DNA of 37,216 nucleotides, from assembly GCA_016870995.1 (NCBI GenBank), contig VFZU01000053.1:1-37216 (forward strand), written 5' to 3'. The notes below the pieces were generated by a model, which was given only the letters and a program-made list of their open reading frames with translations, was not told the origin of the DNA and did no database searches. The stretch's first letter is position 1. Every line of letters starts with the position of its first letter. Positions 14,491-34,598 of this stretch are shown here, in pieces. A program made the translations under genes and the position numbers. The DNA is from Acidobacteriota bacterium (lineage in GTDB: Bacteria > Acidobacteriota > Terriglobia > Bryobacterales > Bryobacteraceae).

Positions 14491-15870
14491 TCACGAATGG
14501 AATGAGTCGATTAGGCTGTGTAGAAGCTTGTTTAAATCCTGGTCCTTGTGCCGCAATTCGTCGATTTTGTGGACCGAGTGTAGCACGGTGGTGTGATGTT
14601 TGTTGCCGAGGGTTCGGCCGATTTCGAGCAAGGAAGCCGTCGTAAGTTCCTTGGCGAGGTACATTGCAATCTGCCGCGGGTAGGCGATGCGTCGCTCGTT
14701 GGACTTCTGTTTCAGCTGGCCTGGCATCAATTCGAAGCGGTCGGCGACTGCCTTGAGAATCGATTCGATCGAGATCCTCTTTTCGTTCGTCTGCGTCAGG
14801 TGCTTCAACAACTGCTTGGACATTTCAAGCGTGATTGGGGTCCCCGTGACTGAGGAGTAAGCCATCAGCTTCACGAGCGCACCTTCCAGCTCGCGAATGT
14901 TCGATTTGGTGCGAGTGGCCAGAAAGATCCTGACGTCCTCTGGCAGGTTGATGCCCTCGTTTTCGGCCTTCTGATCGAGAATCGCCATTTTGGTTTCGAG
15001 GTCAGGAGGCTGAACATCGACGATCAGGCCCCATTCAAAACGGCTGCGCAGGCGCTCGACGAGACCGGAAACTTCTTTTGGCGGTGAGTCAGAGGAAATG
15101 ACGATCTGCTTCTGATTGTCGAAAAGTTCGTTGAAGGTGTGGAAGAACTCTTCCTGCGTGCGTTCCTTGCCACCGATGATCTGAATGTCATCGATGAGCA
15201 ACACATCCGCCGACCGGTAGAACTGATGGAAGTAGCTCATCTTCTCCATGCGGATGCATTGGATCATCTGGTTCATGAACTTTTCGCTCGTCGTATAGAC
15301 GATCGTCATGCCAGGGTGTTCGGTGAGAAGGTTGCGCCCAATGGCGTGCATCAGGTGGGTTTTGCCCATACCAACGCCGCCGTAGATGAAGAGTGGATTG
15401 TAGCTGCGTGAGGGCCGAGTGGCGACCGCGTGTGCCGCCGCGTGAGCGAATTGATTGCAGCTGCCCACCACAAACTTGTCAAAAGTAAATTTCGGATTCA
15501 GATGCGCTACAGGCTGTGAGAACAGTGCCTCGATGGTCTGAGACGCATCGGTGTAAGAGTGACCTGCGTTAATCTGCCGGCCGTAGCTGTTCGATCCGGT
15601 CGACATCGCCATCCGATCGGAAGCTGCCTCGAGGTGATAGATCACGCTACTGTAAGGCAAGCTGAGATGAGCGATTGCATCGCTGACTTGTTTGGAGTAC
15701 TCCCGCTCCATCCATTCCCCGGTCGCTTCGTTCGGCACCGAAACAAAAATCGTGTCCTCGTCGGTCTTGTTCAGCGTCGTCCGCACTACCCAGTTTTCGA
15801 AGCTCTCCGCACTCAGAGAGGCCGCCAGCGTTTGTTTTACTAATTCCCAAACATTCATTTGTTCTGTCAC
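14491..15870 (-). CDS. dnaA: Chromosomal replication initiator DnaA
   Basis: The 459-residue protein has all DnaA domains. Domain I contains WELVKQTLAASLSAESFENW. A short variable linker follows, then the AAA+ domain III starting LNPKFTFDKFVVGSCNQFAH, with Walker A GGVGMGKT at 164-171 and Walker B LLIDDIQ near 225. Domain IV ends with GNKHHTTVLHSVHKI, the DNA-binding signature. It binds DnaA boxes and opens the origin. GTG 15870 (preceded by ggcggaaca) is used here. ATG 15858, which yields MNVWELV, is an equal alternative. Sites just upstream resemble DnaA boxes, which suggests autoregulation. Confidence 0.97.
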   Translation of the reverse strand: MTEQMNVWELVKQTLAASLSAESFENWVVRTTLNKTDEDTIFVSVPNEATGEWMEREYSKQVSDAIAHLSLPYSSVIYHLEAASDRMAMSTGSNSYGRQINAGHSYTDASQTIEALFSQPVAHLNPKFTFDKFVVGSCNQFAHAAAHAVATRPSRSYNPLFIYGGVGMGKTHLMHAIGRNLLTEHPGMTIVYTTSEKFMNQMIQCIRMEKMSYFHQFYRSADVLLIDDIQIIGGKERTQEEFFHTFNELFDNQKQIVISSDSPPKEVSGLVERLRSRFEWGLIVDVQPPDLETKMAILDQKAENEGINLPEDVRIFLATRTKSNIRELEGALVKLMAYSSVTGTPITLEMSKQLLKHLTQTNEKRISIESILKAVADRFELMPGQLKQKSNERRIAYPRQIAMYLAKELTTASLLEIGRTLGNKHHTTVLHSVHKIDELRHKDQDLNKLLHSLIDSFHS

Positions 15871-15922
15871 TGTTCCGCCGCGTTACTACTTACAAGCCCT
15901 TCAAACACAAAAATCCCACAGG

Positions 15923-15942
15923 TTTTCCACAGTTGTGGAAAG
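15923..15942. promoter_or_regulatory. Inverted pair of DnaA-box-like sites
   Basis: ttttccaca (15923-15931) and tgtggaaag (15934-15942) face each other across 2 bases. The first differs from ttatccaca at one position and the second from tgtggataa at two. They form a near-perfect palindrome about 55-70 bases upstream of the dnaA start, a position suited to autorepression or to initiation. Confidence 0.55.
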
Positions 15943-16000
15943 GTGGGGGGACCTTGGGATTGAAATGGAGATCTGTCAGGCTTTGAGGATGCTCCCGAGC

Positions 16001-16020
16001 CAACGACTGTTTCGTCGTTG
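16001..16020. other. Stem-loop upstream of dnaA
   Basis: caacgac (16001-16007) and gtcgttg (16014-16020) form a perfect 7-bp stem with a 6-base loop. No T-run follows on either strand, so it is not an obvious terminator. It lies between the DnaA-box-like pair and the AT-rich segment. Confidence 0.45.
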
Positions 16021-16187
16021 TAGGCCTGCGATTACAAAGTCTAGCACATTCATTCTTGGCGGCAAAAGAAAATATGAAATTTTATAAAGTTATTAGTTTC
16101 AACATTTTGCAGGTGTTTTTCCAGCACTTTCTATAGGAGACCATTTTGTCCTGTAACGAAATTTTCACTCGTTTCGGAGGGGTGGAT

Positions 16188-16217
16188 TTGACAAGCTAAA
16201 GATGCTTCAGCGATACT
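16188..16217 (+). promoter_or_regulatory. Sigma70-like promoter of tRNA-Gly
   Basis: A perfect -35 ttgaca (16188-16193) is followed after 18 bases by gatact (16212-16217), which matches four of six bases of tataat. Transcription would begin near 16224, about 30 bases before the tRNA. Confidence 0.6.
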
Positions 16218-16255
16218 ATGTTTGGCCGCTGCTTCAGTAGCCGCCCTGCTCCTGC

Positions 16256-17220
<965 letters not shown>

Positions 17221-30542: not shown

Positions 30543-31451
30543 TTAATTCTCCCCCATCAGCATCTGGTAGATCCTGTGTAACTCATCCTGCGAGTAGTAT
30601 TCGATCTCGATACGGCCGCGCTTTTCATTTTTGCGATGAATGGCCACGCGTGTTCCAAGTACTCGTTGGAGCTCTTCTTCAGCTGCCTTTACGTTTGGAT
30701 CAATCTGTACTTTTACTTGCTCTTTAAGTTCCCTGGGCTCGGTCATGCTCTGGACCAGTTTTTCGGTGGCGCGAACGGAGAGGCCCTGGCTGACGATCTT
30801 TTCTGCGACGTTGCGTTGGAGCTCTTCGGTCGGTAGGCCGAGGATGGTGCGTGCGTGGCCCATGCTGAGGCGTCCGTCGCCGAGCATGGCCTGGAGGTCT
30901 TCGGGCAAACGCAGAAGCCGAAGAAAGTTAGTAATCGAAGTACGGTCCTTGCCGGTGCGGCGGCCGATTTCTTCGTGGGTGAGATTCAGCTCCCGACTGA
31001 GGCGGTCATAGGCGACTGCGGTTTCGATGGCGTTGAGGTCATCGCGCTGGATGTTCTCAATCAAAGCCAGGGTGAGCACGTTGTCATCGGCCACGTCCTG
31101 GATGACGACCGGCACGACCGCAAGGCCGGCCAGCTTTGCGGCTCGCCATCTTCGTTCGCCCGCTACAATCTCATAGCCATCGCCCAGCTTGCGGACCAGC
31201 AGCGGCTGAATGATGCCATTCACCTTGATGCTCTCTGCCAGCTCCTGCAGTTTGTCTGCGCTGAAGTTGGTACGAGGCTGGCGGGGGTTGGCCTGGATAT
31301 CGAGAATCGAAAGCTGTACCAGTCCGCTGGTGGGTTCGCTCGAAGCTGGAGCTGCAGCGGCTGGGGCAGCTGGGCCGCTGGACGGTCGGTTGGGGAGAAG
31401 GGCGGAGAGACCCTTACCTAATACTCGTCGTGGATCTTGCGGCTTGTTCAT
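30543..31451 (-). CDS. parB: Chromosome partitioning protein ParB
   Basis: The 302-residue protein has the basic N-terminal RRVLGKGLSALLP, which in ParB proteins stimulates the ParA ATPase. Pro/Ala-rich linker residues 24-40 follow. The CTP-binding core has GERRWRA (98-104) and ENIQRDDL (132-139), and a helix-turn-helix THEEIGRRTGKDRTSITNFL (158-177) recognises parS. A C-terminal dimer domain ends IYQMLMGEN. It spreads as a CTP-dependent clamp from parS and works with ParA to separate origins. The ATG at 31451 gives the family start and overlaps parA by 38 bases. Four parS sites lie just upstream of parA. Confidence 0.95.
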   Translation of the reverse strand: MNKPQDPRRVLGKGLSALLPNRPSSGPAAPAAAAPASSEPTSGLVQLSILDIQANPRQPRTNFSADKLQELAESIKVNGIIQPLLVRKLGDGYEIVAGERRWRAAKLAGLAVVPVVIQDVADDNVLTLALIENIQRDDLNAIETAVAYDRLSRELNLTHEEIGRRTGKDRTSITNFLRLLRLPEDLQAMLGDGRLSMGHARTILGLPTEELQRNVAEKIVSQGLSVRATEKLVQSMTEPRELKEQVKVQIDPNVKAAEEELQRVLGTRVAIHRKNEKRGRIEIEYYSQDELHRIYQMLMGEN

Positions 31452-32205
31452 TGGCCATGATCTCCTTTGCCAGTTTGATATAGCATTCGGCGCCCTTGGA
31501 GCGGACGTCGTATGAAATGACGGGTTTGCCGAAGCTTGGGGCTTCCGCGAGGCGGATGCTGCGGGGGATGACCGTCTCGAAGACCTGTTTGCCAAAGAAC
31601 TCACGGAGGTCGTTGGCAACCTGGCGAGTGAGATTGGTGCGGTCGTCGAACATGGTCAGCAGAACGCCTTCGATGGGGAGTTCATGCTGGAATGCTTCGC
31701 GGATTCTCTGGATGGTATCGATCAACTGCGAAACGCCCTCAAGTGCGAAGAACTCGCACTGGATCGGGACAATGATTGAGTCGGCGGCGACCAGGCCATT
31801 GAGGTTGAGAAGGTCGAGAGCAGGGGGGCAATCGATGAGGATGTAAGCGTATTGGTCGCGGATGGAATAGAGGGCATCGCGGAGCCGGAACTCACGTTCT
31901 GGAACATCGACAAGGTCAATATTGGCAGCCACTAAATTTTTATCGGCGGGCATCAAAAACAGCCCTTCGAAGTCAGTTGGAACGATAGCTTCCTGCGCGG
32001 TGCACGCCTGAGTCAGCACGTGGTAGCAGGTTCTAGTTTGGGCGTCTTTTGAAACTCCTACACCACTGGTCGAGTTACCTTGGGGGTCACAGTCTACTAA
32101 TAGTATCTTGAGCTCGCTAAGGGCCATAGATGCGGCCAAATTGATAGCAGTTGTTGTTTTCCCGACGCCACCCTTTTGATTGGTGATCGCGATGATTTTT
32201 CCCAC
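31414..32205 (-). CDS. parA: Chromosome partitioning ATPase ParA
   Basis: The 263-residue protein is a deviant-Walker-A ATPase: GKIIAITNQKGGVGKTTTAI (motif KGGVGKTT at 11-18), a LLVDCDPQGNST switch region and a YILIDCPPALDLL Walker-B-like segment. It forms an ATP-dependent gradient on the nucleoid along which ParB-parS complexes move. Length and start agree with Soj-type proteins. A parS site lies 32 bases upstream of its ATG, where ParB could also affect transcription. It overlaps parB downstream. Confidence 0.96.
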   Translation of the reverse strand: MGKIIAITNQKGGVGKTTTAINLAASMALSELKILLVDCDPQGNSTSGVGVSKDAQTRTCYHVLTQACTAQEAIVPTDFEGLFLMPADKNLVAANIDLVDVPEREFRLRDALYSIRDQYAYILIDCPPALDLLNLNGLVAADSIIVPIQCEFFALEGVSQLIDTIQRIREAFQHELPIEGVLLTMFDDRTNLTRQVANDLREFFGKQVFETVIPRSIRLAEAPSFGKPVISYDVRSKGAECYIKLAKEIMANEQAARSTTSIR

Positions 32206-32236
32206 GGCGCTATCTTAGCACTACAGTCAAGCGTGA

Positions 32237-32252
32237 TGTTTCACGTGGAACA
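32237..32252 (+). promoter_or_regulatory. parS site 1
   Basis: tgtttcacgtggaaca. Its reverse complement tgttccacgtgaaaca fits the general parS consensus tgttncacgtgaaaca exactly. It sits 32 bases upstream of the parA start. Confidence 0.93.
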
Positions 32253-32367
32253 CCTAGTGTGCCTTGCTGAAGGTGGCTGCGGACTCGTGTCAGTGAAGGA
32301 GTTGCTCAAGGTGTCTTTCAGTCGAGCGCTGGTTCTCGGAATCAGCAAACGAGAAGTTCCAGTCGAA

Positions 32368-32383
32368 TGTTTCACGTGGAACA
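32368..32383 (+). promoter_or_regulatory. parS site 2
   Basis: tgtttcacgtggaaca, identical to sites 1 and 3 and in the same orientation. It lies 131 bases from site 1. Confidence 0.93.
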
Positions 32384-32596
32384 ACGACTCTCTGCACTGA
32401 ATCTGGCGGTACGCGGTCGTGATTTGCTGTTTTCAGTGCTCGTTACGTGAGAGATTGGCTGGATTCTTCGTTGGATGGAGGTCGAAGGAGAGAAAAACGG
32501 CATCTCGCCCTCCTCTTTGGGTGTAATTCCACTCGATTGGGCTCAATTGGCTTCAGAATCTGCCATTGTAGGGGATGGGTCGGGGTGAAGTCTCGA

Positions 32597-32612
32597 TGTT
32601 TCACGTGGAACA
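32597..32612 (+). promoter_or_regulatory. parS site 3
   Basis: tgtttcacgtggaaca, identical to sites 1 and 2 and in the same orientation. It lies 229 bases from site 2. Confidence 0.93.
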
Positions 32613-32701
32613 TCATGCTAAAGCAGCAAGATTGAACTAACTCCAGTGAGAAATAGTCACTTCGACCGTGGAATGAGTTGGGTTTGTCGATCCAGATCAA
32701 G

Positions 32702-32717
32702 TGTTCCACGTGGAACA
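32702..32717. promoter_or_regulatory. parS site 4, perfect palindrome
   Basis: tgttccacgtggaaca is a perfect 16-base palindrome built from the tgttccac half-site. It ends 6 bases before the mnmG stop codon. It differs by one base from the other three sites. Confidence 0.9.
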
Positions 32718-32723
32718 GCGTAA

Positions 32724-34598
32724 CTACTGCTCTGTCTTCGGCATGCTTAGGTAAACATCAAGGATTGCTATGGCAGCGGGAGTCACTCCGGGGATACGGC
32801 TTGCGTGGCCCAAAGTTTCGGGGCGAACCCGGCGAAGTTTGTCCTGTACTTCGTTTGAGAGGCCAGGGACGTTGGAGAAATCAAAGTCACCTGGGATTTT
32901 GCGGGCTTCTCCCTCTTTCAGTCGTTCTACCTGACGATGCTGCTGGGCAAGATAGCCTTCGTACTTAAGTTCGGTCTCGACCGTGGTGGCGAGGGCGGGG
33001 GGAATTGCGGCACCGATTTGAGATTCCAGATAGGGGGCAATCTGCGAAATCTTGGCCTCCGGGCGGCAAAGCCACACCGAAAGCGTAGGCCGATCGTCGA
33101 ATCCGAGCTCCAATCCAGTGATTTTGCCCGGAGAGACGCGCTGTTCCTGCAGGATTGCGATGAGTCGTTGCTTGAGAGCCAATTTCTCGTCAAAGCGGCG
33201 AGAGCGCTCACCGTTAGCCAAGCCGATGCGTTGGGCAATGGGAGTTAGCCGTTCGTCGGCATTGTCGATTCGAAGGTGAAGGCGGAACTCCGCACGGGAG
33301 GTAAACATGCGGTAAGGTTCGTCAGCTCCCTTGCTCACCAGATCATCGACCAAGATGCCGCCATAGGCTTCATTGCGGGCCAGGACAAGCGGCGACCCCC
33401 CCGAGATCTTGAGGCCGGCATTGATGCCAGCCAGGAGACCCTGAATCCCCGCCTCTTCGTAGCCACTGGTCCCGTTGATCTGTCCTGCAAGAAATAAGCC
33501 AGGGTAGCACTTCACTTCCAGCCGATGATCCAATTCTCGCGGGTCAATCGCGTCGTACTCGATCGCGTAACCGGGCCGGATCATCTCGGCGTCTTCAAGA
33601 CCTTCGATGGAGGCAACCATGGCGGCCTGAACATCGATGGGCATGCTCGTGGACATACCGTTGACGTAAACCTCGTTCGTATCGAGACCTTCCGGCTCCA
33701 AAAAGATCTGGTGGCGAATCCGGTCTGGGAATTTGACGATCTTGTCTTCGATGCTTGGGCAATACCGCGGCCCGATGCCTTCAATCTGACCGCTGTACAA
33801 AGGGCTGCGCGGGATCGCCTCAGAGAGCACCGCTTGGGTACGTTCGTTCGTGTAGGCGAGAAAGCACTGAATCTGCTTGCGTTCAATGCTATCAGTCAGA
33901 AAGCTGAACGGTGTCGGCACGGCATCGCCATCCTGGGGCTCGAAGCGGTTCCAATCGATAGTGCGACCATCGAGCCGGGGAGGGGTGCCGGTTTTGAGCC
34001 GGGTCCATTGCAAACCGAGATTGCGGAGTTGCTCGGCGAGCAGGTTGCTGGGTGCCTCCCCGTTGCGACCACAAGAATAAGTGGTCTCTCCAACGTGGGC
34101 GATCCCTTTCAGAAATGTACCGGTGGTGACAACCACGGCCCCGGAACGCAGTTCCCTTCCGTCTGCAAGACGAACACCGTTAACCTTGTTTTCATCTTCG
34201 ATGATGAAGCTCGCCACCTCAGCTTGAAGGATCCGCAGGTTGGGCTCCTGCTCTAGCACTTCTTTCATCCTGATTCTATATAGCTTCTTGTCGCATTGCG
34301 CCCGAGGGCTCCACACCGCAGGGCCGCGGCTGGTATTAAGCAGCCGAAACTGAATCCCAACAGCATCGGTGACTTCGCCCATCACCCCGCCCAACGCATC
34401 GATCTCACGCACCAGATGGCCTTTGGCGATCCCGCCGATGGCGGGGTTGCAGGACATCTGAGCGATCAGATCAATGTTCATCGTGATCATCGCGGTCTTC
34501 AAACCCAGACGCGCGCAGGCGCGCGCAGCCTCACAACCCGCATGGCCTGCCCCGACCACAACGACGTCATATCTGCTTTGCTTCATCGGAAACTGCAT
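32724..34598 (-). CDS. mnmG: tRNA uridine-5-carboxymethylaminomethyl modification enzyme MnmG
   Basis: The 624-residue flavoprotein, with MnmE, makes the cmnm5 modification of wobble uridines in certain tRNAs. The FAD site [16 protein letters not shown] is N-terminal, followed by [24 protein letters not shown]. In the middle is [15 protein letters not shown], with the conserved cysteine, and then [20 protein letters not shown]. The C-terminal helical domain contains [22 protein letters not shown] 34598 and ATG 34586 are both possible starts, and neither has a strong Shine-Dalgarno. The location next to parAB near the origin is the conserved gidA-par arrangement. mnmE is not in the window. Confidence 0.96.

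Follow-up and report, generated by a model that had tools for sequence, protein, structure and literature searches.

Four predicted parS sites between mnmG and parA in a Bryobacteraceae genome, and variation in site number among relatives

What is the function of a set of near-identical 16-base repeats that fills the gap between mnmG and parA in an Acidobacteriota bacterium of the family Bryobacteraceae, and how far is their arrangement shared by relatives? We addressed this question in a 37,216-nucleotide stretch of DNA (contig VFZU01000053.1 of assembly GCA_016870995.1; hereafter the window), for which an earlier reading had proposed four parS sites at positions 32206-32723. This segment proved to be the exact 518-bp gap from the mnmG stop codon to the parA GTG, both genes being on the minus strand, and all four 16-mers were present in it, exact and at the positions given (Table 1). 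They were the only matches in the window at up to two mismatches, and 100 dinucleotide shuffles of the window gave a mean of 0.01 sites and a maximum of 1, compared with the four observed. Judged from sequence, the four 16-mers are a compact parS cluster beside parA-parB, three of them being identical mixed sites and the fourth a perfect palindrome. The longest open reading frame seen in the interval (88 aa, 32443-32709, minus strand) had no Pfam match; no Rfam family was found there or elsewhere in the window, and the interval showed no tandem repeats and no trace of duplication beyond the parS sites themselves.

Table 1. Coordinates of the parS sites and of neighbouring features in the window
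Feature	Position	Strand	Description
dnaA	14491..15870	-	ORF; family match 14506-15849
AT-rich stretch	16031..16150	.	upstream of dnaA; candidate oriC unwinding region
parB	30543..31451	-	302 aa; ParB_N + HTH_ParB + ParB_C; GERR box at residue 98; start overlaps parA end
parA	31414..32205	-	GTG start; 263 aa; Walker-type ATPase, KGGVGKTTT; Walker motif near residue 10
Putative extended -10 of parA	32212..32220	-	TGCTAAGAT; ends six bases before GTG; mRNA probably leaderless
parS 1	32237..32252	+	TGTTTCACGTGGAACA; site closest to parA, GTG 31 bases off; at -35 position of putative parA promoter
parS 2	32368..32383	+	TGTTTCACGTGGAACA
parS 3	32597..32612	+	TGTTTCACGTGGAACA
parS 4	32702..32717	.	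perfect palindrome TGTTCCACGTGGAACA; mnmG stop codon six bases off
mnmG (gidA)	32724..34598	-	upstream neighbour of interval

The genes around the cluster have the features of a chromosomal ParABS system. ParB carries the ParB_N and HTH_ParB domains, a GERR box, which is a CTP-binding motif, and R and G at the positions that read the site, as expected of the cognate ParB. These two residues, R170 and G198, were matched from sequence to Caulobacter residues 173 and 201, at which R and G were described as absolutely conserved in ParB by Jalal et al. 2020 (PMC7383237). The short ParA is encoded beside parB and is without an N-terminal DNA-binding domain, the condition described for chromosomal ParA (PMC7022226), and the four sites are exact 16-mers of the common type found in chromosomal systems. 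The cluster is also origin-proximal, with dnaA about 16 kb away. An AT-rich segment upstream of dnaA (15850-16255), containing one DnaA-box-like 9-mer at 15923 and adjoined by a tRNA at 16256, is a candidate oriC; the lowest-GC 60-base windows of the whole window start at 16031-16091. GC skew was not decisive for the position of the origin, and oriC is named as a candidate. A search of the mnmG-parA interval found no DnaA box, and a location of oriC within it was rejected. Assignment of the protein to Noc, with NBS sites acting in nucleoid occlusion, was likewise rejected: the four specificity positions of ParB are R, F, R, and G as against Q, K, K, and R in Noc, and the protein scored 227.5 bits with the Noc family TIGR04285, below the cut-off of 315.

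The four 16-mers almost certainly form the parS centromere of a chromosomal ParABS system of the ordinary type, with a number of sites that differs between lineages. From known ParABS biology, ParB, whose gene lies directly downstream of parA, would load on parS as a CTP-bound clamp and spread onto flanking DNA, and the ParA ATPase would move the ParB-parS complex, providing early segregation of the origin region at dnaA. The system is of a known kind and an ordinary member of it, and the feature in the window is itself ordinary.

A genome-wide search for the 16-mers, proposed with the original prediction, placed the exact sites beside parAB only. The genome is a draft of 5.72 Mb in 215 contigs (98.99% complete), so additional parS sites could lie in its gaps. 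Exact parS occurred at four places and the reversed control pattern at none; allowing one mismatch added no further site and allowing two added two, on other contigs, while at up to three mismatches the 61 matches, against 54 for the reversed control, amounted to background. The genome contained a single ParB match at E 1e-8.

Comparison of the same interval across relatives, likewise proposed at the outset, agreed with this picture. The exact 14-base core of the site occurred in seven of eight genus genomes, and all 29 cores lay in the mnmG-parA interval; in the eighth genome (79% complete) the only ParA match was weak (E 1.8e-5). Intervals of 96, 108, 518, 523, 554, 918, and 1533 bp held 2, 2, 4, 2, 4, 4, and 11 exact cores, respectively, and additional sites with one core mismatch were found in the 523- and 554-bp intervals (one each) and in the 1533-bp interval (two). 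The last of these belongs to genus-mate G006 (L042:2733-4270), with 11 exact and two one-mismatch parS in 1.5 kb; its nine mixed sites all share the orientation seen in the window, which shared descent could explain. When parS and promoter were removed, conservation of the spacers between the window and three relatives gave z-scores of 1.1, 1.1, and 0.1 against shuffles (four pairs, 60 shuffles each), and the closest spacer pair, at z 2.5, was not clearly random. The spacers are thus little or not conserved, which leaves parS and a promoter-like element as the conspicuously retained parts.

These data also bear on whether the palindromes might be something other than parS, either operators for a different regulator or hairpin structures in a non-coding RNA. 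The predicted RNA fold of the interval was more stable than those of shuffles (z -2.85, with none of 100 shuffles as low), and in some relatives the core occurs away from parAB, two of them being without a good ParB match. The paired repeats in the fold, however, are in our reading accounted for by the 16-base palindromes, the spacers show little or no conservation, the window has no Rfam match, and the sites of this genome lie nowhere but beside parAB. We therefore attributed the z-score to the palindromes and rejected a non-coding RNA in the interval, and we regard these alternatives to parS as extremely improbable.

The wider family was surveyed with an even sample of 150 genomes taken from a larger group, and exact cores were counted in these genome-wide at any position. 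No core was found in 16 genomes, one in 23, two in 78, three in 18, four in six, and 5-55 in nine. Two is therefore the commonest number of sites in the sampled family (78/150), and the window genome has four and its genus-mate eleven. Several family members were rich in cores. G097, with an 11.5-Mb genome, had 55 exact cores; among the 50 places listed, 27 contigs were represented, and the sites were often grouped in twos to sixes at 20-60 bases from one another (e.g. L129:3186-3377 and L130:3599-3755). G092, G134, and G137 had 25, 15, and 11 exact cores. G008 and G107, two members of a single genus with completeness of 98% and 96%, had four and eight cores, each on a contig of its own; no good ParB match was obtained in either (E 2.5e-9 at best, none at 1e-8), and the ParA match of G008 was also weak. 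In these two the locus may be missing, or the motif may serve a different purpose. Because the core is spread, in some relatives, over many contigs outside the parAB locus and these two are without a good ParB match, the motif alone is no proof of a centromere in every genome.

For the locus itself, we assembled 68 ParA-relative loci (the window, six genus-mates, and 61 named contigs), omitting L049-L052 as duplicate contigs, judged by length, of genus genomes already in the set. The mnmG-parA interval could be measured in 64, the mnmG 3' end not being found in L054, L071, L093, and L094, and at least one exact core was present in 63 of the 64 measured intervals. Beyond the family, an exact core close to parAB was present at 42 of 50 loci from elsewhere in the order and class. 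The original prediction had described a compact centromere standing in place of the usual rsmG. The compact cluster and the absence of rsmG at this position both stood, the genome's own rsmG being on contig C54, outside the interval. Replacement did not: rsmG was detected in 33 of the 64 intervals and was absent from 31 (by a profile built from the genome's own RsmG, which a very diverged rsmG may escape), and since its absence is this common, parS did not replace it. The 33 rsmG-bearing loci held 67 cores, 46 after the rsmG stop and 21 starting within the rsmG open reading frame, mostly in its last bases; the rsmG frame contained the start of at least one parS core in 19 of these 33 loci (e.g. 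L053, L070, and L084).

The position of parS 1 raised the question of whether ParB also controls parA. The claim of a site close to the parA start was accurate, the GTG being 31 bases from the 16-mer and 32 from its 14-mer core. Between the site and the GTG lies a putative extended -10, TGCTAA(T/C/G)AT, whose end is six bases upstream of the GTG. Each of the seven genus members that have a parA locus retained it, and no obvious ribosome-binding sequence separated it from the GTG in these seven. From the conserved -10 at this distance and the absence of an obvious ribosome-binding sequence, we infer that the parA message is likely leaderless. More widely, 34 of 68 loci had TGnTAnnnT with its end 3-10 bases ahead of the start, as compared with 4, 5, 7, 5, and 4 loci for the next five eight-base windows. 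The parS 1 core ends 20 bases ahead of the extended -10 and hence occupies the -35 position. The cluster might accordingly serve both as centromere and as parAB operator, with ParB on parS 1 blocking the leaderless parA promoter, and we hold such autoregulation to be a tentative possibility, with the balance somewhat against it. In its favor are this spacing, the presence of a site 32-35 bases from the start in six of seven genus members (exact in four, with a core mismatch in two), and the reported repression by Pseudomonas aeruginosa ParB of promoters beside parS3 and parS4 (PMC5521831). The slot of parS 1 is, however, core-mismatched in two genus members and empty in the 11-site genome, and its position within the genus may reflect shared descent. 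A sigma-70 consensus scan found no standard promoter here, although such a scan would miss an extended -10 that lacks a -35. Sites lay within 60 bases of the start in 34 of 57 loci, against 37.6 expected if sites were placed at random across the gap (of the 64 loci, 57 were used; six were dropped because all sites lay within the rsmG frame or the gap was shorter than 16 bases, and one because it had no exact site). Among relatives there was thus no excess over random placement, and preferential placement of parS near parA is not supported by this comparison.

In two further relatives the sites form arrays whose repeat units measure some 110 to 390 bases (L064:4200-5700 and L071:1-1440). The L064 array comprises seven exact parS and one with a mismatch, and that of L071 eight exact parS with one-mismatch site(s) in addition. 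The repeat unit of L064 takes in the 3' end of mnmG, and L071 has a related array; the duplicated mnmG end shortened the interval as measured in L064 (546 bp, three sites). The gap ahead of parA may thus be where this family grows and shrinks its centromere, partly by tandem duplication that includes the mnmG 3' end, producing arrays of two to at least eleven sites. Since a site is often located on a leaderless parA promoter, centromere size might in turn be coupled to the amount of Par protein. We consider this combined reading improbable.

Two properties of the individual sites were also examined. The three mixed sites in the window share one orientation, but a meaning for this did not survive comparison: pooling all sites gave an apparent trend (31 versus 18), whereas counting by locus gave 14 one way, 12 the other, and three with both, and the trend was rejected. 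The second property is the base at the variable position, through which the palindrome and the three mixed sites could load differing amounts of ParB. Natural parS sites have been reported to differ in affinity in Caulobacter (PMC5815017) and P. aeruginosa (PMC4368675), and within the family the variable base tracks ParB residues 181 and 197, Q at 181 going with T, and K or R more with C. On a quick tree of 63 loci, 59 of which had both traits, the fewest changes were two for residue 181, three for residue 197, and two for the base, so that the link rests on just two or three independent pairs, too few for a sign test. It also failed outside the family (133 loci, of which 119 were used, ten having no exact core near parAB and four no HTH coverage), where 11 loci with K or R at 181 and M at 197 had mostly T-type sites. 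We therefore rejected a code by which ParB residues would specify the variable base: the pattern, though clear in the family, is supported by few changes and contradicted outside it. Since each of the two bases occurs commonly at this position in relatives, the difference may be neutral, and graded affinity of the four sites seems to us rather unlikely.

The locus provides a sequence-based description of the centromere for a Bryobacter-like genus and its family, namely a small parS cluster directly at parA, and genus members whose interval naturally carries 2, 4, or 11 exact sites allow a ready comparison of the effect of parS number. A limited literature search found no work combining parS, ParB, Acidobacteria, and centromere, and none of relevance on parS in Bryobacter. 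Among known systems, P. aeruginosa resembles the window genome in having four origin-proximal sites, parS1-4 (PMC4368675), and its ParB is reported to be able to repress promoters beside intergenic sites (PMC5521831); it differs in its six more diverged, dispersed sites (PMC4368675), whereas the draft genome studied here had none at one mismatch and two at two. In Myxococcus xanthus a parS cluster of the same 16-base motif type likewise lies near parAB and the origin, but its 22 sites are reported to be spread over 3 kb, some 4 kb upstream of parA (PMC3899335), whereas the four described here fit into 518 bp immediately upstream of that gene. Caulobacter crescentus similarly has a cluster of at least five sites, roughly 8 kb from its origin; its five strongest sites, as described, span 5 kb (PMC5815017), whereas here the four sites are contained in one intergenic gap of about 0.5 kb.
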